Shown here in pieces: positions 12,544 to 50,200 of a stretch of DNA of 54,167 bases (positions within the stretch are counted from its first letter, which is position 1; each line of letters opens with the position of its first letter). A program made the position numbers and the translations under genes. The stretch lies in NCBI GenBank assembly GCA_016194505.1, contig JACQBK010000009.1:1-54167 (forward strand), read 5' to 3'. Source of the DNA: Ignavibacteriales bacterium (GTDB lineage Bacteria; Bacteroidota; Ignavibacteria; UBA10030). The notes under the pieces were generated by a model. That model was not told where the DNA came from. It searched no databases and worked only from the letters and a program-made list of their open reading frames with translations.

Positions 12544-12553
12544 AGTGAATCAT

Positions 12554-13304: not shown

Positions 13305-13370
13305 AAGGAAAACCTTGCGAATTTTCAATTGACAATTTCGAATTGAAAAAGATTCAATTCCGCAATTTTG

Positions 13371-13446: not shown

Positions 13447-13864
13447 ATGGTTACAAGTATAATGTAGAAAAAAAAGGCAAACTTTACAATGAGAATTATA
13501 AGGTTAAAGCTTTTCATACATCAGAGATTGTATTTTTTTATGCCGCTTTTGTCCAACAGCTTGCGTGTAGTTTCATTCATAACGAACGAAATCCCCTGCA
13601 ATCACAACACCCGCCCCTCATCCCTTATCTTGACTTTAGCCTCATTTTTTGGTATTATTTTATGATTTTTGTGTAAAAATTATTGTTTTTTGCAGAAAGC
13701 GTTAGCGAAAGACCAAATCTTGGTTCAATTAATTGCGGCAACATATCCTGCCTCTTCCTCAACACTTTGAAGGCTGCTTGTTCTCACTCATATCATAAGG
13801 AAGCAATGAATCGAGCGCTTGAACCGGAATCGGTTGTTTTTGACGTTTTGCCTCGAACGCAGAT
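13447..13864. other. Spacer between the tRNA cluster and psd
   Basis: This AT-rich divergent spacer of 418 bases should hold promoters for the tRNA cluster (minus) and the psd operon (plus). A 61-codon frame at 13683-13868 has no recognisable features and runs into psd, so I do not call it. Apart from the promoter at 13630-13658 I see nothing definite. Confidence 0.5.
13630..13658 (+). promoter_or_regulatory. Candidate housekeeping promoter for the psd operon
   Basis: TTGACT and TATTAT are separated by exactly 17 bases, a close match to the -35/-10 consensus. Transcription would begin near 13665, leaving a 200-base leader before psd. Placement upstream of a six-gene co-directional run supports it, but the long leader is a reservation. 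Confidence 0.45.
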
Positions 13865-14515: not shown

Positions 14516-14536
14516 CTCTCATGGAGCATTAAGCCT

Positions 14537-31995: not shown

Positions 31996-33375
31996 TCACT
32001 GGTTCATTTTGTATTTTTTCATCAACCGGTAGAATGTTGCCCTTCCGACTTTAAGCTTGCTTGCCGCTTCAACAATATTTCCGTTTGTAACTTTTAGTGA
32101 GTGACGAAGCGCTTCCTCCTTTAATTTTTCCATAGGCTTAATAATTTCCGTTCCGGCAAAAAGGGGCGAGGATGAAGAGCTTTGGTCTTCTTTTGAACCA
32201 AACGCCTGCACTGCCAGAGGTAGATCTTTCTCAGTGATCATGGTGCCTTCTGCCATAAGAGTGGCGCGCTGGATTGCATTCTCAAGCTCTCGAATATTCC
32301 CGGGCCACGGATAATCATACAACATCTTAAAAGCCCTTTTCGAGAACTTCATATCTTGTTTGGAGATCTCCGCGGAAAACTTTTTCAGAAAGCTTTCTGC
32401 AAGAAGCAGTATATCCGACCGCCTGTCCCGCAACGGGGGGAGCATGATAGGGAATGTCGCCAGCCGGAAATAAAGATCCTCTCGGAATTCTTTTAAGCCG
32501 ATAGCTTTCACTAAATCCCGGTTGGTTGCAGAGATCAGTCGCACATCCGAAGTGAAGGTTTCGTTGCCGCCCACGCGCTCAAATTGTTTGGATTGAATGA
32601 CACGAAGCAATTTCGCTTGCAGACTCAAATCAAGATCACCGATTTCATCGAGGAAGAGCGTGCCGCCATCAGCTTGCTCAAATTTTCCGATCCTTCGCTG
32701 ATGTGCGCCTGTAAACGAGCCCTTTTCGTGCCCAAAGAGCTCGCTTTCAAGCAAATCTTTGGGGATAGAAGCACAGTTGACCACAACGAAGGGATTGTTT
32801 TTTCTTATCCCGTTGAAGTGAACAGCCCGTGCAATAAGCTCCTTTCCAGTTCCGCTTTCACCGAGCACCAATACGCAGATGTCATTGTCTTTCACTTTGT
32901 TGACGAGCTTGAAAACCTCCTGCATTGTTCCGTTATCAGAAATAATGTTGTCGAAGTGGACGGCTTTCTCCATCGAATCTCGCAGGCGGCTTACCTCTCT
33001 CGCCAGATCGTGAGTTTGAAGCGCATTTTTCACTGTAATTTCAAGTTTGGCAAAATCTACCGGCTTGCTGAAATAATCCGTTGCGCCAAGCTTGAGGGTT
33101 TCTATGGCAATCTCAATTTTCCCTTGTGCCGAAAGCATAATCACAGGCAAATCAGGGAAACGTTTCTTTATCTCTTTGAGTATTTCAACTCCGCCGATGC
33201 CGGGCAGCATGATATCGAGCAAAATCAAATCTGGATTGTCGTCTAACGCCTCCAGACACGATTCCCCGTTGATAAAAGTTCTTGATTGGTACCCCCATCG
33301 CTTCGTAACCCAGTGTTCGAGCAAACGCGCGATAGTGTCTTCATCGTCAACAATATAGATTAGTTTGTCAGCCAT
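31996..33375 (-). CDS. NtrC-family sigma-54 activator (REC–AAA+–Fis HTH)
   Basis: This enhancer-binding response regulator activates RNA polymerase carrying sigma-54. The receiver domain has phospho-acceptor Asp54 (LLDIMLP). The AAA+ domain has Walker A GESGTGKE, the sigma-54 contact loop GSFTGA (a variant of GAFTGA) and Walker B GGTLFLDEIGD. A Fis-type HTH ends the protein (NGNIVEAASKLKVGRATFYR). It lies 42 bases downstream of a small kinase gene. Four sigma-54-like promoters in the next 8 kb, one driving this same operon, make it the likely controller of the surface-fibre genes. Confidence 0.95.
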   Translation of the reverse strand: MADKLIYIVDDEDTIARLLEHWVTKRWGYQSRTFINGESCLEALDDNPDLILLDIMLPGIGGVEILKEIKKRFPDLPVIMLSAQGKIEIAIETLKLGATDYFSKPVDFAKLEITVKNALQTHDLAREVSRLRDSMEKAVHFDNIISDNGTMQEVFKLVNKVKDNDICVLVLGESGTGKELIARAVHFNGIRKNNPFVVVNCASIPKDLLESELFGHEKGSFTGAHQRRIGKFEQADGGTLFLDEIGDLDLSLQAKLLRVIQSKQFERVGGNETFTSDVRLISATNRDLVKAIGLKEFREDLYFRLATFPIMLPPLRDRRSDILLLAESFLKKFSAEISKQDMKFSKRAFKMLYDYPWPGNIRELENAIQRATLMAEGTMITEKDLPLAVQAFGSKEDQSSSSSPLFAGTEIIKPMEKLKEEALRHSLKVTNGNIVEAASKLKVGRATFYRLMKKYKMNQ

Positions 33376-33417: not shown

Positions 33418-34119
33418 TTACCAATTTGGGAATTCCAGTTTCATGGTCAAAATATGCTCTTCGCCGGTTGTGACCGTCAAACGTCCCCCTTGAAGTTCGA
33501 CAAGTTGTTTCGCAAATGCCAAGCCTAATCCCTGTTCGCGTATTTCCACATGAGGCGCGTGTACCCAAGTAAAATTGTTTACCAATGTCTCCCCATGAGC
33601 ATCCGGCGATTGTGTTAATTCGCTTCGGATTTGAATTTGAATGGACGAGACGTATCTCGAAACATCTGCATGGATTTGGGAATCCGTGGGAGAAAAACTG
33701 ATCGCATTGTTAAGCAAATTTTCTATGATTTGGATGATCTTCATTGCATTGAGTTTCGATGGCAGCGTAATCGGTTCGAGATGCGATATAATGTTGATGG
33801 ACTTTGCCTCTGCCTTCGATCTCACTAAAGCAATTGAGGACATCACAAGAGTGCTTATATCTTCTTTAGGAACAGTCGCTAGGACTTTTACTCTTGGCTG
33901 AACCTTTGTCCCCAAGTAGTAGTCTATAAAACTTGAGAGGCGTTTTCCCTCGTCTCGTATGATCTTGGCATATTCTTGGCGCGCTTTGAGTGAAAGTCGT
34001 GGATCGTTGAGCATGATTTCGGCATACCCAATGATTGAGGTAAGCGGCGTGCGCAATTCGTGCGAGATACTTCCTGGCGATTCCTTGTTGCTATCTATCT
34101 TTGGATTCGGGATGCTCAT
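33418..34119 (-). CDS. Small soluble histidine kinase partner of the NtrC-type activator
   Basis: This 233-residue kinase has no membrane helix or sensor domain. The phospho-acceptor helix is right at the N-terminus (SHELRTPLTSIIGYAE, His20). The N-box IIENLLNNAISFSP and the G2 box GLGLAFAKQLVELQGG are present. The DxGxG ATP-lid motif (G1 box) expected between them is absent; that stretch reads roughly SELTQSPDAHGETL. ATP binding may be weak, or it may act as a phosphatase or phosphotransfer partner. It is the first gene of the operon with the sigma-54 activator and is read divergently from the secreted subunit genes. Confidence 0.85.
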   Translation of the reverse strand: MSIPNPKIDSNKESPGSISHELRTPLTSIIGYAEIMLNDPRLSLKARQEYAKIIRDEGKRLSSFIDYYLGTKVQPRVKVLATVPKEDISTLVMSSIALVRSKAEAKSINIISHLEPITLPSKLNAMKIIQIIENLLNNAISFSPTDSQIHADVSRYVSSIQIQIRSELTQSPDAHGETLVNNFTWVHAPHVEIREQGLGLAFAKQLVELQGGRLTVTTGEEHILTMKLEFPNW

Positions 34120-34503: not shown

Positions 34504-34520
34504 TTGGCACGGCGTTTGAG
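34504..34520 (+). promoter_or_regulatory. Sigma-54-type promoter of the first small secreted protein
   Basis: TTGGCACGGCGTTTGAG matches the -24 element perfectly (TGGCAC at 34505) and has TTGA at -12 with the correct five-base gap. The predicted start lies near 34531, about 40 bases before ATG 34573. Confidence 0.75.
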
Positions 34521-34572
34521 ATAATACTAATCAAACAAATTACTCAACAACAAAATGTCAACGGAGAATACA

Positions 34573-35073
34573 ATGAAAAAGTCAATCTTAACAATCGCCC
34601 TCGTAGTTCTTAGCTCAGCCATGATCCAAAAAGCAATGGCACAAGCAACTGCAACACAGACTGTTACTTTAGCTGTGAACGCGGTTTATAAGATAGCAAC
34701 ATCCGGCAACCCCGGTGCCTTAACGGTTACCACGGGTAGTGCCGGAACAGATGCTTTAACGTCCGTCAGCGACAACTCGACGTCCTACAGCATCACCCAG
34801 AATTTTGGCAACACAGTGAAGATCACAGCGAACTTAGATGCAGCGTTAAGCGCCGGCTACACGCTTCAATTGAACTTAGCCAGCAGCAAAGGCACCAGTG
34901 CAGGTAGCGTTGATATCTCCAATGCGACCTCAGGCAGTGCGGTGAACGTGGTAACGGCGATAGCAAAGGGTGCAGATGCGAGCCAAGCGATCGGCTACAC
35001 CTTCTCAGCTTTGGCATCAGCCGGAACATTAGCTTCGACTTCTAAAACTGTTACTCTTACCCTTACGAACTAA
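34573..35073 (+). CDS. Small secreted beta-rich protein, candidate fibre subunit 1
   Basis: I do not recognise a named family. The protein has 166 residues: a signal peptide (KKSILTIALVVLSSAMIQKAMAQ), then a Thr/Ser/Ala/Asn/Gly-rich domain with alternating beta pattern, starting TATQTVTLAVNAVYKIATSG and ending KTVTLTLTN. It has no cysteine after the signal. ATG 34573 is preferred over 34555 because ACGGAG lies 7 bases upstream. From YKIATSG to the end (127 residues) it is identical to the next gene's product. It has its own sigma-54-like promoter and terminator. The role as a pilin- or fibre-like subunit is inferred from the assembly genes downstream. Confidence 0.75.
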   Translation: MKKSILTIALVVLSSAMIQKAMAQATATQTVTLAVNAVYKIATSGNPGALTVTTGSAGTDALTSVSDNSTSYSITQNFGNTVKITANLDAALSAGYTLQLNLASSKGTSAGSVDISNATSGSAVNVVTAIAKGADASQAIGYTFSALASAGTLASTSKTVTLTLTN

Positions 35074-35116
35074 ATTAAGCTAAGTTGTAAACGCCTCCGA
35101 GCGTAGTAAAGCCTAA

Positions 35117-35150
35117 AAGCTCCCAAGTTTAACTTGGGGGCTTTTTTGTT
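35117..35150 (+). terminator. Terminator after candidate subunit 1
   Basis: AAGCTCCCAAGTT pairs with AACTTGGGGGCTT with one mismatch and is followed by a T-run. It separates subunit 1 from the next promoter, making that gene monocistronic. Confidence 0.85.
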
Positions 35151-35240
35151 TTTTAGACATAGATAGGTTGGTAAAAATGGTTTCTGCTTTGTTCAGAATG
35201 CCACAGGCACTTTCCTTATTTTAAAGGCAATTTCGCTATC

Positions 35241-35268
35241 TCATTTTGATTCATAGAAATCAAAATGA
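35241..35268. promoter_or_regulatory. Paired TCATTTTGA motifs, likely activator binding site 2
   Basis: TCATTTTGA at 35241-35249 and its inverse TCAAAATGA at 35260-35268 form a 19-base-spaced palindrome. The motif, its period and its distance to the promoter (80 bases) match site 1 although the surrounding DNA differs. Confidence 0.65.
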
Positions 35269-35319
35269 TACACAATAGTGAAAATAATGCAGTAAAATCA
35301 GTTGTTTCTGCAAGTTATA

Positions 35320-35336
35320 CTGGCACAATAGTTGAA
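35320..35336 (+). promoter_or_regulatory. Sigma-54-type promoter of the subunit–assembly operon
   Basis: CTGGCACAATAGTTGAA: TGGCAC at 35321-35326, five bases, TTGA at 35332-35335. The start would be near 35347, 50 bases before the ATG at 35397, which also has AGGAG in place. Confidence 0.75.
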
Positions 35337-35396
35337 ATACTATAATTAGAAAACGAAACCAAACAACCACAATCACCAAATCAAACAGGAGTTTAT

Positions 35397-35897
35397 ATGA
35401 AACAAATTCTCATCACACTCACACTGGTAGTCCTAAGCTCAATCCTTATCGAAACGGCATTTGCTCAAGTCACTGCCACCCAAAGCGTTTCCTTAACCGT
35501 GAATACGGTTTATAAGATAGCAACATCCGGTAACCCCGGTGCCTTAACGGTCACCACGGGTAGTGCCGGAACAGATGCTTTAACGTCCGTCAGCGACAAC
35601 TCGACATCCTACAGCATCACCCAGAATTTTGGCAACACAGTGAAGATCACAGCGAACTTAGATGCAGCGTTAAGCGCCGGCTACACGCTTCAATTGAACT
35701 TAGCCAGCAGCAAAGGTACCAGTGCAGGTAGCGTTGATATCTCCAATGCGACCTCAGGCAGTGCGGTGAACGTGGTAACGGCGATAGCAAAGGGTGCAGA
35801 TGCGAGCCAAGCGATCGGCTACACCTTCTCAGCTTTGGCATCAGCCGGAACGTTAGCTTCGACTTCTAAGACTGTTACTTTGACATTAACGAACTAA
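35397..35897 (+). CDS. Small secreted beta-rich protein, candidate fibre subunit 2
   Basis: This is a 166-residue secreted protein whose mature part from YKIATSG onward is identical to subunit 1. The signal peptide and the first mature strand differ (KQILITLTLVVLSSILIETAFAQ and TATQSVSLTVNTVYK). At DNA level the shared ~380 bases differ by only a few silent changes, while the flanks are unrelated. It heads the operon that runs through three further small secreted proteins to the chaperone-like and usher-like genes, with no terminator until 41452. Family unknown; role as a structural subunit is inferred. Confidence 0.75.
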   Translation: MKQILITLTLVVLSSILIETAFAQVTATQSVSLTVNTVYKIATSGNPGALTVTTGSAGTDALTSVSDNSTSYSITQNFGNTVKITANLDAALSAGYTLQLNLASSKGTSAGSVDISNATSGSAVNVVTAIAKGADASQAIGYTFSALASAGTLASTSKTVTLTLTN

Positions 35898-35981
35898 TTT
35901 TGAGTTGGTGGGAATTCCGCGACTGGCAAATCTAACAAACGACCGGTCGCGGAAATTCACATTGTAAGAAAGACCCAAGCC

Positions 35982-36488
35982 GTGAACGTTCGATACCGAC
36001 ATATTGCGAAAGGATTTTGGAGATTACTCTTCTTTGGGGTAATCTTTTCGCAGTTTGTACGGGCACAGGGAGTCAATACACAACAGGTAATAACGCTCCA
36101 AGTGGTCGAACTTAACAAAATAGGCATTAATCTCAATACCGTTAATCTGCTTATTGATCAAGCGTCTTTTGAACAGGGTCAGCCGTTGCCAGCGGAAAAT
36201 TCCGATGGGACTCTGGTATGGACAACCAACGGAGATAATAAAAAAATTACCGTATCCAGTAACCAAACCTCTCCACGGTTCACTCTTAAATTGATAGCAC
36301 AGCCTGAGAACAATGCGGACATTGCCGCACCGGAGATTACGCTGAATGATAATACCATTCATGATTTGGTCATGGGAGTCTCAAGGCGGTCCGGGAAATG
36401 CAGAATTAGATTGAACGCCTCTGCAACGCTTTCTGACGGCGTTGGGATAGAAAATCACGTTATAACTTACACGATTACAAGCAGTTAG
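35982..36488 (+). CDS. Small secreted beta-rich protein, candidate subunit 3
   Basis: This 168-residue protein has a signal segment (FWRLLFFGVIFSQFVRAQ). It then has the same architecture as its neighbours: a first strand NTQQVITLQVVELNKIGI, a central WTTNGDNKKITVSS, an APEITLND segment, an LVMGVSRRSGKCRI segment and a closing VITYTITSS. It is divergent from subunits 1 and 2 but shares the segment order with subunits 4 and 5. One cysteine follows the signal. The GTG at the start has no strong ribosome site, so the exact start is uncertain. It lies 84 bases after subunit 2. Confidence 0.7.
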   Translation: MNVRYRHIAKGFWRLLFFGVIFSQFVRAQGVNTQQVITLQVVELNKIGINLNTVNLLIDQASFEQGQPLPAENSDGTLVWTTNGDNKKITVSSNQTSPRFTLKLIAQPENNADIAAPEITLNDNTIHDLVMGVSRRSGKCRIRLNASATLSDGVGIENHVITYTITSS

Positions 36489-36595
36489 GGCATTTACCAT
36501 CCTCCTTGTGCTTGAAAATGAACAACAATGCACCTATATTTGATATACCGATGCTACACACCAAACATTGTTACCAGAATCTTCAGTTACGTCGA

Positions 36596-37096
36596 ATGAT
36601 TTTCTTAAAAAGATTTTTTCTTTTTGCGATAGCAGTGTTTTTCTTTTTTTGCGGGACGGAGAGAACGTACGCGCAAGTTTATGGCAGTGCAAGCCATACG
36701 ATAACCGTTGTCGTCAACACGATAACTATGGTGTCTGTGAGTTCCGGTACGGTTAGCATGACAATAACAGGCACAGGTGTGATTGCAGGGCAGAACCAAA
36801 TGACTGTTGCTAACTCAGCCACAAGTTTGCTCTGGGGTGTCAATAGTTCATTGAAAAAAATAACGGCACAAACGAATCTTGTAGCGCCTCTGTTTGCGAT
36901 GAAACTTTTGGCTGTAAGCCCTACGCAAGGCACGGCAGCCCCGGAGATCACATTAAGCACCACTGCCACCGACCTTCTCACAAATATCGGAAGATCAAAA
37001 GGAAGTTGCACATTGCAGTACACCGGCGTTGCGTTAGCCTCGCAAGGCACAGGAACTGATTCCCATACAATCACATTTACTGTTGCAGCTCAATAG
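36596..37096 (+). CDS. Small secreted beta-rich protein, candidate subunit 4
   Basis: ATG 36596 gives 166 residues with a clean signal peptide (IFLKRFFLFAIAVFFFFCGTERTYAQ). The open frame extends up to GTG 36506. The mature part follows the shared plan: SHTITVVVNTITMVSV, LLWGVNSSLKKITAQT, FAMKLLAVSPTQGTAAPEIT, LLTNIGRSKGSCTLQY and HTITFTVAAQ. It is closest to subunit 5 (both have LAVSPT.GTAAPE). Unknown family; probably a minor or tip subunit, judging by position between the major pair and the assembly genes. Confidence 0.7.
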   Translation: MIFLKRFFLFAIAVFFFFCGTERTYAQVYGSASHTITVVVNTITMVSVSSGTVSMTITGTGVIAGQNQMTVANSATSLLWGVNSSLKKITAQTNLVAPLFAMKLLAVSPTQGTAAPEITLSTTATDLLTNIGRSKGSCTLQYTGVALASQGTGTDSHTITFTVAAQ

Positions 37097-37109
37097 GGCT
37101 TGGTATGAT

Positions 37110-37616
37110 ATGACACATTTTTATTCCTCATATTGGTTACGATGGCTTTGTTCATCAAAAGTATTTTTTACTTTGGTGAGCGTGTTCGGTGCCATTATGC
37201 TAACATCACCTCGCATCCATGCTCAAGTCATTACTGTTACCGGAAATAAAACACTGACCATTACGACTGCTGTTATCGGCTCGGAGCCGACTCCAGTGGT
37301 TAATAGTACATCAACTCTTTCGTATAAAAGGCGTTCGGCTATAGCTAAAATTACTGTTGGGACTTCTTGCCCAAGCCAAAGTTTTACTCTCAAGGTATTA
37401 GCAGTCAGCCCAACAGCCGGTACCGCCGCGCCGGAGGTAACGCTCGCGAATGGTATGTTGGCTACGGATTTTATAATCAATATCCCTTCTGGTAGCACTG
37501 CGGCATGGCGTACTGCCACGCTTCGCTATACAGCCTCAGCGACATTCGCTCAGGGTAACAGCACAGAAATGGGTAATGATGTCCACACCGTTACATACAC
37601 TCTTGTCGTTCAATAA
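37110..37616 (+). CDS. Small secreted beta-rich protein, candidate subunit 5
   Basis: From ATG 37110 this is 168 residues, with a signal segment (VFFTLVSVFGAIMLTSPRIHAQ) and the shared beta-strand plan: ITVTGNKTLTITT, SAIAKITVGTSCPSQSFTLK, LAVSPTAGTAAPEVTL, DFIINIPSGSTAAWRTATLRY and VHTVTYTLVVQ. A TTG start at 37083 would overlap subunit 4 and is less likely. It ends 9 bases before the chaperone-like gene. The LAVSPT.GTAAPE motif shared with subunit 4 suggests a paralogous pair. Confidence 0.7.
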   Translation: MTHFYSSYWLRWLCSSKVFFTLVSVFGAIMLTSPRIHAQVITVTGNKTLTITTAVIGSEPTPVVNSTSTLSYKRRSAIAKITVGTSCPSQSFTLKVLAVSPTAGTAAPEVTLANGMLATDFIINIPSGSTAAWRTATLRYTASATFAQGNSTEMGNDVHTVTYTLVVQ

Positions 37617-37625
37617 GGTCCCTTT

Positions 37626-38447
37626 ATGAAAAATAATTTGCTGAAACTCTTGAGTGCGCTGGTTATTGTTTCTTGCACAACGCAAGCGCAAATCTCCGTG
37701 ATCGGAGAGCTTAGCCAAGATAGGCAAGCGCGCCCCGGCGAAAAATATGACGGCGTGATTATAGTGAAGAACGACACCAATGAGCCGCAAGAAGCAAGAA
37801 TATACCAGACAGATTATCTTTTCTATTTCAACGGCACGAATAACTACGGAGAGCCGGGCACGATGTCTCGGTCGAACGCAAAGTGGGTTACGTTCAGCCC
37901 ATCGTATCTAACCGTGCCGCCACAAAGCACGGTGTCCGTCAATTTTACGGTAACGATACCGCCCACGATGACAGATGGCAAGAAACTTGTCGGTACATAT
38001 TGGAGTATGCTGATGGTGGAAGGCATTGCCAAAGGCTCTGCCGAATCTTCCGCCCCGAAGGATCCCAAAAAAGCGCAAATGGGTATTAGCCAGACGATTC
38101 GGTACGGCATTCAAATTGCAACCCACATTGCCCAAACGGGCACGAAGCAGATCAATTTTGTCGATGCGAAGATGATGACAAAAGCCGATGGAGGGCGATT
38201 CCTTCAAGTAGATATTGAAAACACCGGCGATCTCGGCTTACGACCCGATGTCTATGTCGAGCTTTTCGATGACAAAGGAGCCTCAAAAGGGAAATATTCC
38301 GGTGTAAAATATCGCCTTTACCCAGGCACATCCGTTCGGCAAATGATCGACTTAACCGCTGTTCCAAGCGGAAATTATAAAGCGGTGGTGGTGGTAGATG
38401 CCGGCGGTGATGATGTCTATGGCGCGCAATATACTTTGAAATTTTGA
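37626..38447 (+). CDS. Periplasmic Ig-fold chaperone-like protein
   Basis: This 273-residue exported protein has signal peptide LLKLLSALVIVSCTTQAQ; Cys17 could alternatively be lipidated. The first domain has PapD-like character: a lead strand with conserved PGEKYDGVIIVKNDT, then WVTFSPSYLTVPPQSTVSVN and FTVTIPPTMTDGKKLVGTYW. A second beta domain (about 175-273) contains IENTGDLGLRPDVYVELFD. I am sure of the Ig-like build. The chaperone role is inferred from its place between secreted subunits and the usher-like gene. An alternative is a DUF916-like cell-surface protein. Confidence 0.6.
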   Translation: MKNNLLKLLSALVIVSCTTQAQISVIGELSQDRQARPGEKYDGVIIVKNDTNEPQEARIYQTDYLFYFNGTNNYGEPGTMSRSNAKWVTFSPSYLTVPPQSTVSVNFTVTIPPTMTDGKKLVGTYWSMLMVEGIAKGSAESSAPKDPKKAQMGISQTIRYGIQIATHIAQTGTKQINFVDAKMMTKADGGRFLQVDIENTGDLGLRPDVYVELFDDKGASKGKYSGVKYRLYPGTSVRQMIDLTAVPSGNYKAVVVVDAGGDDVYGAQYTLKF

Positions 38448-38456
38448 GTCCGCACC

Positions 38457-41360
38457 GTGAACATTTTTTGCAACATATATCCGGTTGTTTCCAGCCGGAT
38501 TTTTTTTCTCTTTCTTGGATTTCTGTCTTTCATGCAGAATGGCTGGTCGTTCCAAGAGCAGGGAATTCTTGTAAAGCCTGCTAATGAGTCCCGCATTCAA
38601 GCCCAACCTGGAAAAATTATCACTGTTAGTTTCAGCGTTACCAACGCAACGACGTCAAAGCAACAGTACGAAGCGCGTCTTGTTTTGCCTGCTGGCTGGA
38701 GGGCTTTTGTAAAAGAAACTCCCTTTGAGCTTTCAGCAAATCAAAGTGATATAAGGCTCGTCAGTTTTTTCATTGCTTCGGAAACTCCCGCCGGTCAATA
38801 CGAAGTGCAATATTCAGTAAAAGATAATGCCGTGCTTCCACACACCGCCGACGGTATTCTTCAAGTGGCGATCAGCGCGGTCAGGCAGATTGAATTGAAA
38901 TTGCTCGAATCCCCGCGCTTTGTTGTCGCTGGAGCCCCGTACAAGTCAACGTTTCTTCTTACAAACAAAGGGAACACATATAGCTCCGTTCGATTGTCGG
39001 TCAATAGCCCAAATGATTTTCCGGTTCAGCTTGATTCTTCCCGAATTCATTTAGCGCCTAAAGAAAACCGCTCCATTGTTATACAAGTTACAACTGATGC
39101 TGAGCTTACAGAAAAAATTCAACATGCCGCAGAATTGGTTGGTGTCGTTGAACAAGATTCTTTGATCACTGTTCGAGCGACCAGCGCTGTGGAAGTAATT
39201 TCGCGTGCATCCAATGCTATTGAACAGTATCAATTGTTGCCGTTGTTGGCAAAACTTCGTTTTGTGGGAGAAAAAGAATCGCCCGCCACACAGCTTGAAA
39301 TTAGCGGTTCAACTTCCTTGACGGAAGACAGAAAAGACCGCCTGAACCTCCTTATCAGAACACCGGATACCCAAACCCGTTCAATCTTGGGTCAACGAGA
39401 TGAATATTATCTTGGCTATCAGCGTGAGGGATATGAACTGTACTTCGGCGATAGGAACTTCAGTCTCTCTCCTTTGACAGAGTTCGGTCGTTACGGTTTT
39501 GGTGCTGGAGGTAAGATAACGGTCCAAGATGTTAGCGTAGGTGGCTTTTATAACGAGAGCCGTTTTATCGTCCCCCAGCAGAAAGAGTATGCCGGATTTT
39601 TGAGCTATAAAGTTCGGGAAGGAACCGAGCTTGGCGTCAACTACCTCAAAAAAAACGATCCGAAAGAAAGTGATATTGTCACGGTACGCAGTTTAGTGAA
39701 GCTATTTACCAATACTGATGTGGATGTGGAATATGGCGTTGGCTCAAGCGGCAATACCAAAGATGATGCCTATTCTGCGCGGATCAATGGGAGGGAGAAA
39801 TGGATTTCTTATGATGTGCGTTATGTACGCGCAAACCCTCAGTACCCGGGTTATTTTAAGGATCTCGATTTTAAAACAGTAAGCCTTAATATCATTCCGA
39901 TGAGCGGTTTAAGAGTGGAAGCCTATGCGCGCGACGAGCAGCGAAATCTGAGACTGAGACAAGATACGATGCTGTTCTATGCTCCCCGTGATCAATATTA
40001 CCAACTCGGCGTCGGGTACTCGGATTTTCTTTCGATGTATTACAGAATCAATGTGCAAGAGGACCGTCTGCCAAACTCCAAGTATAACCGTTCTGAAGAA
40101 ATGATTCAGATCAGAGCGGGCTATAATTTCCCGTCAATAAATTTTCTTGTCAATGCCGATCTCGGCACAACGACGGATAAATTACTCCAAAAGGACAGTC
40201 CTTCCCGGCGATATTCTCTATCCACAAATTTCAGGCCGATAGATAATCAGAGTTACGGTTTATCCGTGGAATATTCGAAAGACCAAAATTTATTTAACGA
40301 TGAGACTCAAGAACGCCTTTCTGCAAGTTTCAGCATGTGGGTGCTTCTTGGCGCAAGAACCCAGCTCACCGCCAGCTTCTACGGAAGCAAAACGAGCGCC
40401 GAGGTAGAGCAAACATACAGTCTCATCGAGATTGCACTTGAGCATGCATTTCCTTTCGGACATAAGATTGCAATGCGAGGGAGGGAGACATTCATCACTC
40501 CCGCGACCGAAGGAAGAGAAATTGCTTACTCCGCGGAATATTCCATTCCGCTAAACATTCCTTTAGCACGATTAAAAAATGCCGGGCAGCTTCGCGGCAA
40601 AGTGATAGATGTGGAAACAGGCAAAGGGACAGAAAATGTATTGCTGTATGTCGGTGGGGCAACGGCTGTTACAGATCGTTTGGGTGAATTTTTCTTTCCG
40701 GCGTTGAAGCCTGAGACGCAGTTCCTTCAAATTGACATGTCAACCATTGGGTTGAACCGCGTTCCATCGCAACCTATGCCGAAAGAAGTGGTGATCAGAG
40801 GTGGGGAGGAAGCACGAGTTGATATCGGTGTTGTGCGAAGCGCTACAGTTTCCGGTGTTATCACGCTGCACGGTTTTGCGAAAACAGAAACCGGAGACAG
40901 TACGGCAGGTCCCATTGTGGAGCTTGGAGGACATCCCAGTGCTGTGCTTGAATTATCCAACGGTGTTGAGGTGAACCGTCGTGTTGCCGATAATCGCGGA
41001 CGCTTTGTCTTTGCAGATATTCGCCCCGGCAAATGGAAATTACAAGTGATTGATGGAAACCTTCCTGAGTTCCATTTTCTTGAGAAGGACGCGATTGAGC
41101 TTGAACTACAACCGGGAATGAAAGAAGAAGTTAGTTTCAAAGTGTTGCCGCGCAAACGGAAAATTCTCATACTGCAAGAAGGAAAAGTCCTTGAAGCTGG
41201 TAAGCCGGCTGAGCAAAAGAAACCGACGGTGACCCCAACTCAACCCGTGCAAAAGCAGAGTGTTACGCCAACTCGGCCTAAAAAGAAACGGGTTGAGCAG
41301 AAAAAACCTGCGAAGTCCAAAACTCAGCCGAAACCAAAACAGGTTGAAAAAAAGAATTGA
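38457..41360 (+). CDS. Usher-like outer-membrane beta-barrel protein
   Basis: This 967-residue exported protein has the following order: signal peptide, two NEW3-like Ig domains (about 35-130 and 140-235), a long amphipathic beta region with alternating aromatic residues (about 270-640), a carboxypeptidase-regulatory-like domain (about 650-740, GQLRGKVIDVETGKGTENV), another Ig-like domain (about 765-890, ending LELQPGMKEEVSFKVLP), and a Lys/Pro/Gln-rich tail. Barrel plus small Ig plugs resembles chaperone-usher pore proteins in layout, but I see no diagnostic usher motif. The start is GTG 38457, 9 bases after the chaperone-like gene. It is the last gene before a terminator. Confidence 0.6.
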   Translation: MNIFCNIYPVVSSRIFFLFLGFLSFMQNGWSFQEQGILVKPANESRIQAQPGKIITVSFSVTNATTSKQQYEARLVLPAGWRAFVKETPFELSANQSDIRLVSFFIASETPAGQYEVQYSVKDNAVLPHTADGILQVAISAVRQIELKLLESPRFVVAGAPYKSTFLLTNKGNTYSSVRLSVNSPNDFPVQLDSSRIHLAPKENRSIVIQVTTDAELTEKIQHAAELVGVVEQDSLITVRATSAVEVISRASNAIEQYQLLPLLAKLRFVGEKESPATQLEISGSTSLTEDRKDRLNLLIRTPDTQTRSILGQRDEYYLGYQREGYELYFGDRNFSLSPLTEFGRYGFGAGGKITVQDVSVGGFYNESRFIVPQQKEYAGFLSYKVREGTELGVNYLKKNDPKESDIVTVRSLVKLFTNTDVDVEYGVGSSGNTKDDAYSARINGREKWISYDVRYVRANPQYPGYFKDLDFKTVSLNIIPMSGLRVEAYARDEQRNLRLRQDTMLFYAPRDQYYQLGVGYSDFLSMYYRINVQEDRLPNSKYNRSEEMIQIRAGYNFPSINFLVNADLGTTTDKLLQKDSPSRRYSLSTNFRPIDNQSYGLSVEYSKDQNLFNDETQERLSASFSMWVLLGARTQLTASFYGSKTSAEVEQTYSLIEIALEHAFPFGHKIAMRGRETFITPATEGREIAYSAEYSIPLNIPLARLKNAGQLRGKVIDVETGKGTENVLLYVGGATAVTDRLGEFFFPALKPETQFLQIDMSTIGLNRVPSQPMPKEVVIRGGEEARVDIGVVRSATVSGVITLHGFAKTETGDSTAGPIVELGGHPSAVLELSNGVEVNRRVADNRGRFVFADIRPGKWKLQVIDGNLPEFHFLEKDAIELELQPGMKEEVSFKVLPRKRKILILQEGKVLEAGKPAEQKKPTVTPTQPVQKQSVTPTRPKKKRVEQKKPAKSKTQPKPKQVEKKN

Positions 41361-41451
41361 AAGTTATTCCATCTCAACTAAATACAAACTGGTCCAAGTA
41401 AGAATATTCGCGGCGTGAAGTAAAATCTCCTCGACATTGTCTTTATCCTAC

Positions 41452-41478
41452 AAAGCCACTCATAAAGTGGCTTTTTTC
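41452..41478 (+). terminator. Terminator of the subunit–assembly operon
   Basis: AAGCCACT / AGTGGCTT stem with a five-base loop, followed by CTTTTTTCTTTTT. It ends the operon about 90 bases after the usher-like gene. Confidence 0.88.
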
Positions 41479-41732
41479 TTTTTCTACCTGTTCTTCCGCA
41501 CCCCTTTTCCCTCACCAACATTGTTTTCACTAAGTCTTTCTGTAGAATTTACAGAGCAAAAAAAGGGGCAAATCAAAGCATTCTCCCATTAATTAAAACA
41601 GCCTGCATTTTCAGGGTTTTTTGCACGAAAAAGCTCTCATTATGAATCACTTATTGGCATCAGGTTTGAGGCAGTTACAATAAAGCCATGGAAAACAAAA
41701 CTCAAACGAAATTTAACGAAGAACCCTTGACA
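41479..41732. other. Spacer upstream of the distal subunit pair
   Basis: This AT-rich spacer contains the sigma-54-type promoter at 41654-41671. I found no convincing copy of the TCATTTTGA pair at the expected distance (around 41573 there is only TCAAAGCAT), so activation here may use a different or degenerate site. Confidence 0.5.
41654..41671 (+). promoter_or_regulatory. Sigma-54-type promoter of the distal subunit pair
   Basis: TTGGCATCAGGTTTGAGG: TGGCAT at 41655-41660, five bases, TTGA at 41666-41669. The predicted start near 41681 leaves 52 bases before ATG 41733, similar to the other two plus-strand promoters. This argues against ATG 41688 as the start. Confidence 0.65.
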
Positions 41733-42263
41733 ATGAAGACCACTTTCGCTTATCTTTTACAAACAATGAGAACATCTCTCCCTAAGTCCCTTATTATTTT
41801 GATACTTACCTTTGTGCTGAATACTATTCTTTTGGCACAAGAGGGGAGTAGTGTTACACAATCCGTAACAATTGAAGTAAAGCCTATCTCGAAACTTGCC
41901 GTTACCGGAAATCCCAATGCTCTTGTCATCAATAATGCGATCGCAGGTTCGGAACTGAATGCCGTCAGTGACAATAACACCAAGTACAGTATGCTGACGA
42001 ACATGGATAACATGAAAATAGTTGCTTCAATTGACAATGCAATGCCGGACGGAACGAAGTTGATGATCAAATTGGGAAGCACAAAAGGTAACAGCGCGGG
42101 TATCATTGATCTTTCCAATGCGTTAACGCCGGTGGATGTTGTAACAGGCATCGGTAAAGGAAGCGAAAACAGTCAATCCATAGTTTATACGTTTGCGGCG
42201 AATGCCAATGTTGGGCAGATAGAGTCGCAATCACGCAACATCACATTAACATTGACCAATTGA
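41733..42263 (+). CDS. Small secreted beta-rich protein, candidate subunit 6
   Basis: From ATG 41733 this is 176 residues, with a long signal segment (SLIILILTFVLNTILLAQ). The mature part is a divergent relative of subunits 1 and 2: TQSVTIEVKPISKLAVTGNPNALVI, then AVSDNNTKYSM, KIVASIDNAMPDGTKLMIKL, GNSAGIIDLSNA, DVVTGIGKGSENSQSIVYTF and closing ITLTLTN. Starts at 41688 or 41766 are possible; the promoter position disfavours 41688. It is co-transcribed with the next gene. Confidence 0.72.
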   Translation: MKTTFAYLLQTMRTSLPKSLIILILTFVLNTILLAQEGSSVTQSVTIEVKPISKLAVTGNPNALVINNAIAGSELNAVSDNNTKYSMLTNMDNMKIVASIDNAMPDGTKLMIKLGSTKGNSAGIIDLSNALTPVDVVTGIGKGSENSQSIVYTFAANANVGQIESQSRNITLTLTN

Positions 42264-42270
42264 GCGCACG

Positions 42271-42729
42271 ATGAAATCTCTCACACTCATATTGATCATC
42301 GTTGTTTCTTGTGCAGGAGCGTATGCGCAAAATTCTCCCAAAGCAGTTCAAGCTGTTACGTTTGCGGTGAACTCTTCCCATTATTCTTCATTCGTTGGCT
42401 CCAAGTCGTTGACGATTCCGTTTTCAAATGCAACATCGAACACTACGTCGCTGGTCTTCAATAGCGACGCAAAAGCGTCGAAAAAAATTACGGTCGCGTT
42501 AAACTCCTCATTACCGAATGGAGTTGCGCTTCGTTTGAATGTAATGCAGCAAAATGCGGATGCCCCCGTTCAAAAAATTATATCCGCGACGCCAAGTGAA
42601 ATTGTTGTCCGATCCTTCTATAACGCAGGGGAGTCATTGCGCAAAATTCAGTTGCAGTACAGCGCCACGAAAACAGGCGTTGCTGTTCCCTCAACCGATC
42701 AAACCGTTATCTACACAATCACAGACTGA
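42271..42729 (+). CDS. Small secreted beta-rich protein, candidate subunit 7
   Basis: This 152-residue protein has a short signal peptide (KSLTLILIIVVSCAGAYAQ). The body follows the shared plan: AVQAVTFAVNSSHYSS, SDAKASKKITVALNSSLPNGV, IISATPSEIVVRSF, LRKIQLQYSATKTG and TVIYTITD. It is most like subunit 3 in the KKIT and closing YTIT segments. It starts 7 bases after subunit 6 and completes a two-gene unit. Unknown family. Confidence 0.7.
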   Translation: MKSLTLILIIVVSCAGAYAQNSPKAVQAVTFAVNSSHYSSFVGSKSLTIPFSNATSNTTSLVFNSDAKASKKITVALNSSLPNGVALRLNVMQQNADAPVQKIISATPSEIVVRSFYNAGESLRKIQLQYSATKTGVAVPSTDQTVIYTITD

Positions 42730-42995: not shown

Positions 42996-43279
42996 TTCCA
43001 TTCCCACAGATTTCGTGCCGATTTTTTTCTCTCCATCACTCTCCGATTTCTGCTTCGCTCAAACTCTCTTTTCTCGTTTTTGACACTCTAAAAAAACCTG
43101 TCTGTAAAATTTCTTCGTTTTAAACATCTCATCTACGGTCTATACCGTAGCTCTCTACGCTTCACACCTCATTTTTAAAATTACGGTAATCATTCTATGG
43201 TATAACGAGCCATTTTCGGGGAAATTTGTAACCGAAAGCGATGAAGTATTTTAACCTCATTCATTCTATGGAGTGCATT

Positions 43280-43687
43280 ATGGAACCAATCAAAGTTCTT
43301 ATCGCCGACGATCATAAAGATTTTCGCAAGGTCGTTCGCGATTTCTTAAACAGGCTTCCGAATATTTCTGTCGTTGGTGAAGCGATTGACGGCTTCGACG
43401 TCATCGAGAAGATGGAGCAATTGGATCCTGACATTGTCCTTATGGATATAGCGATGCCGCATAGAAACGGCCTGGACGCAACGCGCATCATTAAACAGCG
43501 CTGGCCCGGAAAAAAAGTTTTTATTGCGACAATGAACGATGACCCCATGTATCGTTTGCAAGCGCAGCAAGTGAAAGCAGACGGTTTTATTCTCAAATCC
43601 TCTCTCAAACCGACTCTCGAAGCGACACTGTGTAACGGCGGGCAAATGACAGTGCCCGTGCCGCCTTTGATTGTGAAACATCGTTAA
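43280..43687 (+). CDS. Stand-alone receiver-domain protein (first of two)
   Basis: From ATG 43280 this is 135 residues containing only a CheY/NarL-type receiver domain: EPIKVLIADDHKDFRKVV, phospho-acceptor Asp in IVLMDIAMPHRNG, the switch Thr in IATMND and Lys in FILKSS. There is no output domain. The longer frame from 43241 adds 13 unlikely residues. It lies 66 bases before a paralogue and between the fibre genes and the giant surface protein. It may relay or buffer phosphate in one of the kinase systems upstream. Confidence 0.88.
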   Translation: MEPIKVLIADDHKDFRKVVRDFLNRLPNISVVGEAIDGFDVIEKMEQLDPDIVLMDIAMPHRNGLDATRIIKQRWPGKKVFIATMNDDPMYRLQAQQVKADGFILKSSLKPTLEATLCNGGQMTVPVPPLIVKHR

Positions 43688-43753: not shown

Positions 43754-44158
43754 ATGAACACTATCAAAATTCTTGTGGCGGATGATCACGAAGGATTTCG
43801 TCATTCGCTTTCTTCGTTTCTCAGAACCCAGGAGGGCGTAGAGATTATTGGAGAAGCATCAGACGGAATTGAAGCGGTTAATTTAACCGAAAAACTCCAT
43901 CCCGATCTCGTCCTGATGGACCTGGCGATGCCGAAGCGCAATGGCTTCGAGGCAACAAAAGACATTAAAGAGCGATCACCGGAGACGCGCGTCATCGTTC
44001 TTTCAATGCACTCCGGCGAAACGTACAAACAGATGGCTTTGCTTAATCGTGCAGATGGTTTCATCGAGAAGGGCGCATTGAAGCTTGGCTTGCTTACGCT
44101 TCTTCGCAATGAATGCGCGCGCGCAATTGGTTTTGAGGTCGGTGCAACTGCCGCATAA
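43754..44158 (+). CDS. Stand-alone receiver-domain protein (second of two)
   Basis: This 134-residue single receiver domain is related to the preceding gene: TIKILVADDHEGFRHSL, acceptor Asp in LVLMDLAMPKRNGFEA, Ser in VIVLSMHSGE and Lys in FIEKGA. An AAGGAG ribosome site precedes ATG 43754. There is no DNA-binding domain. The sequence resembles NarL-type receivers that have lost their HTH. Its stop is 46 bases before the giant protein start, so the two may share a transcript. Confidence 0.9.
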   Translation: MNTIKILVADDHEGFRHSLSSFLRTQEGVEIIGEASDGIEAVNLTEKLHPDLVLMDLAMPKRNGFEATKDIKERSPETRVIVLSMHSGETYKQMALLNRADGFIEKGALKLGLLTLLRNECARAIGFEVGATAA

Positions 44159-44204: not shown

Positions 44205-47200
44205 TTGAAGAAAGCACCTTACATATCATCCATCAATAGGCTGTTTGCTCCAGCGCGTGCGGTTTCTACGCGTGCGTGGTTAGCGAATGGCTTTGGAGCA
44301 GTGCATCGTCTTGTGCTGTTCTTTGTGCTGGTTATTGCCTTCCAGGCAACTGCCATGGCGCAATTGGATAATATTTGGAAGGGCACTACTTCAACGGCGT
44401 GGAGCACGGCTTCGAACTGGTCTCTTAACTTAGTTCCTACGAATGCCCACAACGTTCGAATTCCTCGCGCCGCCAACCTGCCTACATTAAGCGCAGCGAG
44501 TGTTGCGCGCACTATTACCTTCATTGACTCTCTTACCGCAAGCGCAACTGCGACTCTTACTGTTGGAGCGCAAACCTTGACCGTCGGGACTACCGGATTC
44601 CCGGGTAACATCACCATCAATAATGTTGGTGTGCTGAGTATCAGTACAGGAACGGTAACACTCAGTATTGCAGGCACGATGACTCTCAACACCGGCGGGT
44701 CAATTTCGATGACCGGGGCAGGCACCATTGCCGTCAGTGGTGGGTGGACCAATAATGGCGGCACTATGAGCAATACCGCAGGCACAGTCTCGTTTACGGG
44801 TGCGGCAACCCAGACGATAGGCGGCACATCAAGCACGACATTCCCGGCAATTTCGATTGCAAATACTGCCGTGTATCAGATGAGCAATGACAACTCGGCG
44901 ACAAGTCTGACCTTTGTTGCCGGTACAACCGCAAGCTCGTTAACGCATACAGGTACAAGTACCCTAACCGTTAATGGTAATGTAACGATAAACCAGCCAA
45001 CGGCAAACACTATAACGAAAGCATGGAATATCAACGGAGGCTCTGCGACCGTTAGCGGCACGTTGACCATTGGCGGCATAAGTAATACCGCCTCGCGAGT
45101 TGCCGCTGTGGTTGTAACAACAGGCTCATTAAGTGTAACAGGTACGACAACCTTAAGTACAGGAACTAGTTCTGCGGTAGCACGGATTGCAGTTGGGACT
45201 GGTTCGGTAACATTCTCATCTGCCCTAAACCATAACGAGGGGACGTTGGCATTTACCGGCGCGGGCACGATGAATTTCGATAATACGTATGCATTTGCCT
45301 CAGGTGGGTCAGTTGCGCCTATCTTAACGACTGTGAGCGGAGCAAATCTGAATTTTGCGAACAACGTAACGGTTTCCGCAACAGGTGGGTTGACGCTTAA
45401 TGCAGGAAGTAACACTACGTTCACAGGGGCATCTACCATTACGCCAACAACAAATGTCTCGTTCGGCAACGTAACTGTTAATACCGGTGTGACGGTTACA
45501 ACGGCGACCGCCGCAGGTACATTGACTATCGCTGGAAATCTTCTCGTCAGTGGAACAGGAAATCTTGGCGGCGCTGGAACGGAGCCAGTCATACTCTCTG
45601 GTGCAAGCGCAACAATTGATGGAAGTGGTACTATTGCGGCGGCAACAACAGTCAGTGCTGCTCACTCATTCCTCAACACAGCTAATCTTACGCTCTCGGG
45701 TACATGGACAATCAATACGGGTATCACCGTTACCAATAACGGTATTGTTACTTCAATTGCGGCAGGCGGCATTGTGGGAGGCGCCGCTTCGGCAACATGG
45801 ACAAATGCCGCAGGTTCAACGCTTAAAATTTCCGGTCCATTACTGGCTACGGGAACGTTGACCGCCACCGGTAATCCGAACACGGTTGAATACACAGGCG
45901 CAGGTCAAACAGTGAAACTGCCGTCTGGCGCTCCCGCGACATATCATCATTTAACACTTTCAGGCAGTGGTACGGTAACGATGCCCGTTACAGCGATGAC
46001 ACTTAACGGTAATTTCACGACAACGGGCACCGAGTCCGCAACTGCTGGAGCAGCGCTGACAATCAACGGCGATGTCAGCCTCGGTTCGGGTACGACCTTT
46101 AATGCGAGCACGTTTACGCATATCGTTGGAAGCAATTGGACAAACAACGCAACGACTTTCACTGCCTCAACGAGTACAATAGTATTTACAGGTAGTGGCG
46201 TAAACATTGCTGGTGCGACGACATTCAACCGTGTGCGCGTTGCAGGTTCAGGCACAAAGACCTTTACGGTAAACCATACTATCAACGACAGTTTGAATAT
46301 CGTCGGTGGAACATTAGATGTCGGCAGCACAACATTGGTGGTAGGAGGCAACTTCAACAACGGTTCAACATTCACCCCTTCAACGAGTACGGTGATATTC
46401 ACAGGTACTGGCATTAACGCCTCAGGCGTCACAACATTTAACATTGTACGTATAGCGGGTGCAGGGACGAAGACCTTTACGGCAAACCATACCATCAATG
46501 ACAGCTTAAATATTGTCGCTGGAACATTAAGCGCAGGCAGCACAACCTTAGTGGTCGGAGGGAATTTCAACAATGGGGCAACATTTACTGCTTCGACCAG
46601 CACGGTAGTGTTCACCGGCAGTGGCGTTAATGTTTCGGGCGCAACGACATTCAACCGTGTGCGCGTTGCAGGTTCAGGCACAAAGACCTTTACGGTAAAC
46701 CATACTATCAACGACAGTTTGAATATCGTCGGTGGAACATTAGATGTCGGCGGCACAACATTGGTGGTAGGAGGCAACTTCAATAATGCTTCGACCTTCA
46801 CGCCATCCACCAGCACCGTTATATTCACAGGAAGCGGCATTAACGTATCAGGCGCAACGACATTTAATCGCGTACGAATTGCGAGTGCCGGAACCAAGAC
46901 CTTCACAGCAAACCACACCGTTAACGATAGCTTAAATATCGTTGCTGGAACGTTAGATGGTGGCAGTGCAACGTTGGTGGTGGGTGGCAACTTCAATAAC
47001 GCCTCGACCTTCACGCCGTCAACGAGCACGGTGGTGCTCACGGGTAGCGGCGTTAACGTCTCAGGCGCCACGACATTTAATCGGGTACGCATAGCGGGTT
47101 CAGGCACAAAGACCTTTACGGTAAACCATACTATCAACGACAGTTTGAATATCGTTGCTGGAACGTTGGATGTCGGCGGCACAACATTGGTTGTAGGTGG

Positions 47201-50200
47201 TAACTTTAATAATGGAGGAGCATTCGCCGGTTCAACCAGCACCGTTATATTCACAGGTAGCAGCATTAACGTATCAGGCGCGACGACATTTAACATCGTA
47301 CGTATAGCGGGTGCAGGGACGAAGACCTTCACGGCAAATCACACCATCAATGACAGTTTGAATATTGTAGGCGGAACATTAGATGGTGGCAGCACAACAT
47401 TGGTCGTAGGAGGCAACTTTAATAATGGAGGAGCATTCACCGGTTCAACCGGCACCGTTATATTCACAGGTAGCGGCATTAATGTATCAGGTGCGACGAC
47501 ATTTAACCGAGTGCGAATTGCGAGCGTGGGCACAAAGACCTTTACAGCAAATCACACCATCAATGACAGTTTGAATATTGTTGCCGGAACATTAAGCATT
47601 GGCAGCACATCGCTTGCGGTTAAAGGTAACTTTAACAACGATGCCACGTTCTCAACGACGACCGGCACTGTGACGTTCAGTGGCACAGCGGCGCAAGATA
47701 TAAACGGAACGTCCACTACAACATTCAATAATGTAACGATTTCGAATACGAGTGCTACGGCTTCACTAAGTGCGAACGTCAATATCAGCGGTACGCTTAC
47801 AGTTAATACAAACGCGGTATTCCAGCCTGCGGCTGCGGTCGTGATTAACAATGCGGCGGCGCAAGGAACAATTACCGGCTCCGGCACAATCCACGTTACG
47901 AGAACAGCAGCGACGCCTGATTATTCAAGCCAGTACAAGTTCACGACGAATACGCTTTCCGGCCTGACGGTGAACTACAGCGGAGCAGGCGCGCAAACAG
48001 TGAACGCGCTGAACTATGGCAGCCTCACTCTCAGCAGCTCCGGAACGAAAACATTTGCAGGCGCGACGAGCATTGCTGGTAATTTTGTCGTCAGTGGCGC
48101 AACGGCAGATGCGAAGACGAATTTGACGACGATTACGTTTAATGGAACTTCAGCTCAACAAGCGGCTGGCATAACATATTGTAATCTTACCATTAACAAT
48201 ACCAGTGGGGGTGTTGCGCTTTCCGGCAGTGCGGCAATAGACAGCGTATTGACACTCACCAATGGCACATTCACCGTTGGTGCCAACACGTTGACCTTCA
48301 ACGGTACTCCGATTTCGGGAACGGCAACCAATCTTTCCGCCAATGCGACCTCCAGCATTGCATTTACCGGCACGACAACGGGTATGTTCTTGCCGTCAAG
48401 TATTACAGCGCTCAACAACTTGACGGCCAATGTCCATCCGATCTCGAATAAAATTACGCACAATGGCGCTCTTACGATTAGCGGCATACTCTCCTTAACG
48501 GATGGTATTTTTGATAATATGCCCGTGAGCCCTGATACTCTGACGATTGAAAACGGTGCGAGCGTAAGCCGTGTTAATGGACGCTTGCGCGGCGCAATGA
48601 GGCGATACATTCCTACCGGAGCGCAAACGGTTGTGTATGATGTCGGAGGAAACGATCTCAGGACTCCCGTCACGCTTCAGTTCTCTAATGTTACAACTGC
48701 CGGTTATGTAACGGTGAGGATGTTGTTCGGTGACCACGCTCAAATTGCCACTTCGGGTATTGACCAGAATTTGAGCATCAACCGTAATTATGTTATCAGA
48801 CCGAACGGCATTGCATTCGGCTCCGGTTACAACCTTACGCTCGGCTATGGCGGTATCACGCCTGATGACATGGATCCAGGAGCAACGCCGGCTAATTTCA
48901 TTGTTCGGCGATATGATGGAGCTATCTGGTCTAAAACCACCGTTGGCACAAGGACGGATACAAGCACACAAGCAACAGGCTTGACGCAATTTGGAGAGTT
49001 CCAAGTCGGTGAGCAGTTAATAAAAACATGGGATGGTGGTGCTTTAACTAATAATTGGGGTGATGCGCTTAATTGGAATCCGGACGGCGTGCCAACCGCT
49101 CTTGAAGATGTTACATTGGATGGAGCAAACGCGATTGACGTCAATGTTGCCGCAACGACTAACACACTTACCCTCACCAATCCGTCGTTGCTGCTGACTA
49201 TCCTTAGCGGCAATTCATTGACAGTTTCCGGCGATCTCTTGGCTCAAGACGGCACGTTGAATACACAAGGCTCCTTCCCAAGCGTTACAGGTACGGTTAG
49301 TATCACGGGCGGAACGATTGGATACACTGCATCAAGCGGAAGCCAAACCGTGGTGGTGCAGCCTTATAATAATCTTACTATCGGTGGTGGCGGCACGAAG
49401 ACGCTTGCAGGTATTATCACGCTCACCGGCGATCTGGCAATCTCAGGCGGCACATTTGATTTGGGTAGTTTCACAGCAAATCGCTCCGCGGCTGGAGGAA
49501 CCTTGACAATTGCCAATGGAGCCACGCTGAAGATTGGTTCCACCAACACCCGCCCGACTAACTATAACACGCATTCTATCGGAGCGACAAGCACCATTGA
49601 ATATTCCGGTTCCAATCAAACTATCGGTGCTTTGAGCAGCTTGCAAAGTTACGGTCATTTGATTCTTTCCGGCTCGGGAACGAAAACGTTCCCCTCCGGC
49701 ACAACCGGTATCGCAGGAGATTTGACTATCTCCGGCGTTACAGCGGATGCGACGACTAATAGTTCGACAATAGATTTCAAAGGCAGTGCCAGCCAAGCGG
49801 TCGTGGCGATGAATTATTACAATTTGACCTTCAGCAACGCTGGCACCAAGACGTTTGCATTAGGGACATCGCGCATTGCGAATACGTTTACTATCGGCGG
49901 CACCGCTTCTGCGGATGCAACGACAAACTCGACAACGATCGAGTACAATGGCACAAGCTCGCAGGGTGTCCCCGCGTTTACGTACAACAATCTTATAGTT
50001 AATAACTCAGCGGGTGTTTCGTTGTCAGGTAGCACCACTGTCAACGGCACGCTTACATTAACAAGCGGCAACGTTACGACAAGCTCCAATACGTTAACGA
50101 TTGCTTCGACGGGAAGCGTTTCACGGACAAGCGGTCACATTGTGGGCAAACTTGCAAAGTATGTATCTGGGTTGGTGTTGAATCCGACGTTTGAAATTGG

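Follow-up and report, generated by a model that had tools for sequence, protein, structure and literature searches.

The WxLIP family is known from the cell walls of Gram-positive bacteria. An AlphaFold2 prediction published in 2023 places the hairpin strand of WxLIP parallel to a long strand of WxL, whose sandwich it completes (PMC10599100); chaperones, pili and PapD are absent from the text of that paper. As compared in the present analysis, this predicted WxLIP-WxL arrangement is the geometry of donor-strand complementation. The chaperone-usher pathway is represented by FimC/FimD/FimA, by the alternative CfaA and by the archaic CsuC-CsuA/B. In pilus systems, an N-terminal extension supplies the missing strand to another subunit (PMC4654587). 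The two surface systems have been regarded as separate, and no paper tying DUF916 or WxLIP to chaperone-usher systems was found in the open-access literature.

The locus described here appears to link the two. It lies in a window (the whole stretch of DNA analysed, 54,167 nucleotides) from an Ignavibacteriales genome of 2.28 Mb in 137 contigs. We put at roughly 70% the probability that it is a chaperone-usher-like donor-strand fibre assembly system with a WxLIP-family chaperone. Its mode of action is most likely that of a chaperone-usher system. In family terms, the chaperone is homologous to WxLIP, and the usher and the subunits stand outside every described family that could be compared. With the chaperone-usher pathway the locus has in common the layout subunits-chaperone-usher, a two-Ig-domain chaperone with an alternating-hydrophobic strand, a large outer-membrane barrel with C-terminal sandwiches, and subunits that have a donor-like strand near the N-terminus and their last strand at the C-terminus, the extension being missing from one of them. 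It differs in that the window proteins fall outside the PapD, Usher and pilin families by sequence, the chaperone is related to WxLIP, and the window-type usher has NEW3-like N-terminal Ig domains and no inserted plug, its relatives often carrying C-terminal SPOR-like repeats. With the Gram-positive WxL/WxLIP system it shares a chaperone homologous over both domains, small secreted partners encoded nearby, and a hairpin strand placed as is the strand predicted to complete the WxL sandwich (PMC10599100). Unlike that system, it occurs in diderm hosts, has an added usher-like outer-membrane barrel and partners that do not match the WxL domain, and its chaperone in the window is without the visible transmembrane anchor that WxLIP has. 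A sequence-only reading of the same DNA had drawn the chaperone-usher analogy, which holds for fold and gene layout but not for membership in the PapD, Usher or pilin sequence families. That reading had recognised no classic PapD, FimD or pilin motif in the chaperone, outer-membrane protein or subunits, and the PapD, Usher and pilin models indeed do not match these window proteins.

Gene Content and Arrangement

Nine consecutive genes on the + strand occupy positions 34555-42729 of the window. The place and the arrangement, a chaperone-like gene and a large outer-membrane protein gene amid seven genes for small exported proteins, are as the sequence-only reading had given them. The probable start of the first gene is 34573, as had been read; an in-frame ATG is also present at 34555. 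The genes are the following.

34555-35073, + strand: subunit s1, likely the major fibre subunit; relatives have 1-5 copies in tandem
35397-35897, + strand: subunit s2, a near-copy of s1 with its middle part apparently converted
35982-36488, + strand: subunit s3, a member of the homologous subunit set
36506-37096, + strand: subunit s4, a member of the homologous subunit set
37083-37616, + strand: subunit s5, N-terminal donor strand absent; candidate first or tip subunit
37626-38447, + strand: chap, 273 aa; WxLIP-family periplasmic chaperone-like protein with two Ig domains, a long hairpin and a donor-like strand at 152-164
38457-41360, + strand: usher-like outer-membrane protein, 967 aa; Ig domains, barrel, sandwich domains and a basic disordered tail
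41688-42263, + strand: subunit s6, a relative of s1; probable separate transcription unit
42271-42729, + strand: subunit s7, a short, divergent member

The spacing from s3 through s4, s5 and chap to the usher gene (17, -14, 9, and 9 nt) is as in an operon, and larger gaps of 323-327 nt lie upstream of s2 and of s6. Matches to chap were obtained in 20 of 100 relatives; 18 were orthologues, complete or in pieces, and one (G025) was weak. Identity among the good matches was 46-74%. The neighbourhoods in these relatives repeat the same series, namely s1-type genes in one to five tandem copies, s3, s4, s5, chap, the outer-membrane protein and s6, with some members missing in places.

Small Secreted Subunits

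Profile comparison gave probabilities of 99.0% for s1-s4, 97.6% for s1-s5, 100% for s1-s6, 99.9% for both s3-s4 and s4-s5, and 96.7% for s7-s1. By this comparison all seven small proteins are homologous, so their resemblance goes beyond a segment plan shared by chance. The plan shared by all seven that had been read from the sequence is upheld in that respect, but its opening TQxVTLxV-type strand occurs in six only (the protein at 37083-37616 is without it), and its central KIT motif is not universal, s6 (41688-42263) reading KIVA instead. Low-complexity, beta-rich proteins can resemble one another, and the genes might thus encode unrelated secreted beta-proteins next to a porin with no common assembly function. 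This is highly improbable, since all subunits are homologous, gene order and co-occurrence are kept across phyla, and the promoter type is held in common.

In six of the window subunits, about 25 residues follow the signal peptide, including a strand with alternating hydrophobic residues (the search pattern itself imposed positions 2, 4, and 6 of the alternation but not the low hydrophobicity between them). The same six end 0-3 residues past a last strand. Their N-terminal strand is a candidate donor strand. The number of residues before the core strand has a median of 25-26 in s1, s3, s4, s6, and s7 vs. 10 in the s5 family, in which the extension is missing from essentially all 21 members; these lengths rest on a home-made cleavage rule, and three of the s5 family read 13-17 through doubtful cleavage calls. 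Because the N-terminal extension is the donating element in pilus systems (PMC4654587), s5 would accept a strand and not donate one, which would make it a tip or first subunit. The closing strand, read earlier as suited to donor-strand exchange, would not be the donor. The last predicted strand of the subunits runs to the very C-terminus, where it would border an acceptor groove; the donor candidate is instead the N-terminal strand, missing from s5.

The first two subunits (34591-35076 and 35415-35900) are near-duplicates in which a middle part of about 370 bp is about 99% identical and both ends have diverged, a pattern that resembles gene conversion sparing the donor-strand region. Sequence comparison linked the subunits neither to pilins nor to DUF4402 or WxL domains. 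No WxL domain (PF13731) match was listed among 31 subunits, and the pilins of E. coli K-12 aligned with the subunits at signal peptides only. Phage coat proteins were the sole PDB matches of the subunit profile, with marginal E-values, and were taken as chance beta-rich matches.

The Chaperone and Its Relation to WxLIP

A profile of 31 diverse chap homologues matched E. faecium EfmWxLIP1 (9i25_C) by sequence with an E-value of 4.3e-13 over positions 38-260, which cover both domains, and by this profile match chap is a WxLIP (DUF916-DUF3324) homologue. The sequence-only reading had proposed a DUF916 search, the right one as it turned out, without having seen the homology itself. The relation was found with the broad profile alone; PDB sequence searches with single proteins or a narrow chaperone profile returned noise only. 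Against the Pfam models PF06030 and PF11797, the window protein scored below the cut-off (21.0 vs. 27.3), and a homologue on contig L088 scored above the cut-off of PF11797 (WxLIP_HBD; 36.2 vs. 28.9). Three of 396 genomes of the phylum have a match above the WxLIP_HBD cut-off.

The structure was modelled as a fusion of s5 and chap, with the in-frame stop read as Gly so that both fold together (pLDDT 87.1, pTM 0.62). The top PDB match of this model in Foldseek was the E. faecium WxLIP (1.7e-11). It was followed, bar one peptidase, by CfaA, CupB2, Caf1M, CsuC, and FimC (7e-9 to 1.3e-7), pilus chaperones of the alternative, archaic, and classical types, with target-normalised TM-scores of about 0.5. 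Chap is thus predicted to have the two-Ig-domain fold of PapD and FimC. In sequence, PapD_N (PF00345) did not match the window protein and gave low scores in 5 of 31 homologues (best 8.8e-4), and hhalign against the E. coli chaperones detected no homology (0.6% probability).

Strand 152-164 of chap aligns with the WxLIP segment that follows its long hairpin. Positions 152, 154, 158, 160, 162, and 164 are hydrophobic in all 23 sequences compared, and R159, Y160, and Q163 are invariant among them. Read by eye, the chaperone of the window stops with its second Ig domain (...GAQYTLKF) and has no C-terminal transmembrane anchor.

The Usher-Like Outer-Membrane Protein

An AlphaFold2 model of the 967-residue protein, built from 23 relatives, had a mean pLDDT of 84.6 and a pTM of 0.59. 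It contains two N-terminal Ig domains (NEW3-like), about 24-26 consecutive long strands between residues 258 and 705, two C-terminal CarboxypepD_reg-like sandwiches and a basic disordered tail. The Ig domains and barrel that had been read from the sequence are both predicted by the model. The plug-like domain read there does not appear, as no insert above about 13 residues lies between barrel strands in the model, and the domains at the C-terminal end are the CarboxypepD_reg-like sandwiches. Among the PDB matches of the model, ranks 1-9 were all FimD (8e-14 to 1e-12) and PapC was rank 12 (3e-11). Non-usher barrels came at about 1e-6, around seven orders of magnitude worse, with some Ig-repeat proteins between. 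The TM-scores to ushers are low (0.27-0.39), so the usher likeness is one of fold and not of overlay. At the level of fold search, the protein is predicted to have the usher fold, a barrel with N- and C-terminal domains.

By sequence, Pfam Usher (PF00577) was found in none of 41 genomes (the window genome and 40 relatives), with a positive E. coli control, and hhalign against the E. coli ushers gave a weak 26% probability (E 7e-4). These results bear on the suggestion that the locus is an ordinary chaperone-usher system, archaic or alternative, that has drifted past sequence recognition. The fold matches to CfaA, CsuC, CupB2, and FimD agree with such a history, as do sub-threshold PapD_N or TcfC matches in a few chaperone homologues and a weak Usher match in the outer-membrane protein of a paralogous locus on contig L101 (G008). 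It is nevertheless quite unlikely, since the chaperone is significantly homologous to WxLIP and hhalign detects no homology to the E. coli chaperones, the Usher model finds nothing where its control is positive, and the outer-membrane protein has no plug and begins with NEW3-like domains where known ushers have their own N-terminal domain.

Several relatives of the usher terminate in peptidoglycan-binding SPOR-like repeats (weak SPOR matches). Such endings would fit a diderm WxL-like coat without a fibre, in which a WxLIP-family protein holds small WxL-like proteins on the peptidoglycan or outer membrane, with the barrel serving as an anchor or export pore and not as an usher that polymerises subunits. 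WxLIP being the closest chaperone relative by sequence and fold would also fit, as would solo chaperone genes in one family of genomes (f28). A coat of this kind is unlikely, as pilus ushers are the best structural matches of the outer-membrane protein, a donor-strand-like extension is present at the N-terminus of all subunits but one, the window chaperone is without the WxLIP-type C-terminal anchor, and no subunit has a WxL domain match.

Regulation and Flanking Genes

Two regulatory genes precede the locus on the opposite strand, and three promoter-like sites of the sigma-54 (-24/-12) type lie within it or directly upstream.

31996-33375, - strand: NtrC-type response regulator with receiver, sigma-54 activator AAA+ and Fis HTH domains
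33418-34119, - strand: histidine kinase (Pfam HisKA, HATPase_c); position conserved in relatives
34505-34519, + strand: sigma-54-type -24/-12 promoter-like site TGGCACGGCGTTTGA, upstream of s1
35321-35335, + strand: sigma-54-type promoter-like site TGGCACAATAGTTGA, upstream of s2
41655-41669, + strand: sigma-54-type promoter-like site TGGCATCAGGTTTGA, upstream of s6

The regulator matches Sigma54_activat (5.5e-69), Response_reg (7e-26) and HTH_8, and is likely the activator of the locus with the kinase as its partner. An NtrC-like regulator, as read from N-terminal sequences, also adjoins the locus in L025, L031, L032, L036, and L039. Sites of the form TGG[CT]A[CT]-N5-TTG occur upstream of 18 of 27 s1 and s6 genes vs. 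0.06 expected from shuffles, a count that overstates the evidence because orthologues are not independent events. None was present upstream of 50 s3, s4, and s5 genes. A single -24/-12 scan of the window alone was no better than chance, the signal emerging across orthologues only. The tandem s1 copies in L026 also carry sigma-54-type sites.

Directly downstream of the locus are two single-domain response regulators (43241-43687 and 43754-44158), and similar genes follow the locus in L038 and L036. Next on the + strand comes a reading frame (44205-54167) that runs off the contig end and encodes at least 3321 aa of a giant, repetitive, exported protein. Related loci in L084, L085, and L101 have beside them large proteins that end in a type IX-like tail (NYPNPF), and for this reason the giant protein may be an adhesin accompanying the fibre locus.

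Proposed Assembly Pathway

In the donor-strand fibre system that we favour, the kinase and the sigma-54 activator would switch on the genes from s1 to the usher as well as s6-s7. Subunits would reach the periplasm via Sec as sandwiches without their last strand, and the alternating-hydrophobic strand 152-164 of the chaperone, after its long hairpin, would cap the subunit groove. The 967-residue barrel would take up chaperone-subunit complexes by its N-terminal Ig domains. The N-terminal strand of each incoming subunit would then displace that of the chaperone, and a surface fibre would form with s5, which has no such strand, as its first subunit. We infer donor-strand complementation and exchange, the existence of the fibre, the tip role of s5, and an adhesive or biofilm function.

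Distribution Across Phyla

When 84,980 genomes were scanned with the chap alignment, 23 named loci were obtained, among them loci from Zixibacteria, Elusimicrobia, Candidatus Troglogloeales, and Spirochaetales. Wherever such a locus was read, the gene for the outer-membrane protein comes directly after chap and recognised subunit genes come before it unless the contig ends, and in L058 the only upstream candidate is a subunit-like ORF below threshold. Subunits, chaperone, and usher occur together in Ignavibacteria, other Bacteroidota, Zixibacteria, Elusimicrobia, and Deinococcus deserti. Apart from Deinococcus, the host phyla are absent from the published lists of classical, alternative, and archaic systems (PMC4654587). 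No matches came from searching genome contigs with the outer-membrane protein alone, or plasmids with the L088 usher.

In the phylum, 38 of 396 genomes have a chap-family member, in some cases a weak one. The sequence-only reading had held that chaperone-like genes that never co-occur with the small proteins would speak against it; co-occurrence with subunits and usher was found in several phyla, with family f28 and genome G340 as exceptions. In these the chaperone is present and the usher absent, so the chaperone can serve another role. Solo copies in L086 (G361), L103 (G207), and other f28 genomes follow a response-regulator gene and have no adjoining subunit genes.

The odds seem about even that these loci form a separate donor-strand fibre branch, with WxLIP-family chaperones and plug-less ushers, across diderm phyla, which would imply that WxLIP-WxL and chaperone-usher pili share one ancestral donor-strand chaperone. 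If the fibre reading and this branch are true, Ignavibacteria, other Bacteroidota, Zixibacteria, Elusimicrobia, and Deinococcus gain a chaperone-usher-like fibre pathway missed by the Pfam Usher and PapD models, donor-strand complementation becomes an idea that can be tested on WxLIP-WxL binding, and an outgroup becomes available for the origin of chaperone-usher pili.

The system is made testable by a four-gene version in the cultured Deinococcus deserti. Plasmid 2 of strain VCD115 encodes a subunit, chap, the outer-membrane protein, and a subunit (DEIDE_RS15110 to RS15125). The chap of this organism is 30% identical to that of the window (E 2e-28), and its outer-membrane protein matches the profile with an E-value of 2e-39. 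The D. deserti chap homologue (L126 5678-6448, NC_012529.1) is annotated as a FimB/Mfa2 fimbrial subunit. Its Mfa2 (PF08842) match, at 21.7 vs. a cut-off of 21.2, covers 58 residues only, and this identity was rejected in view of the fit of the entire protein to the chap family (6e-61); the annotation is probably a misannotation.

A paralogous locus in the same family, on L101 (G008) at 8021-13383, combines a DUF4402 subunit (above cut-off), a chap-like protein and an usher-like protein, the last with TPR repeats in addition to its weak Pfam Usher match. It recalls the DUF4402 loci of Bacteroidota, from which the locus in the window differs in that its subunits do not match DUF4402. Genes of the s6/s1 type follow the paralogous locus at 13624-14913.
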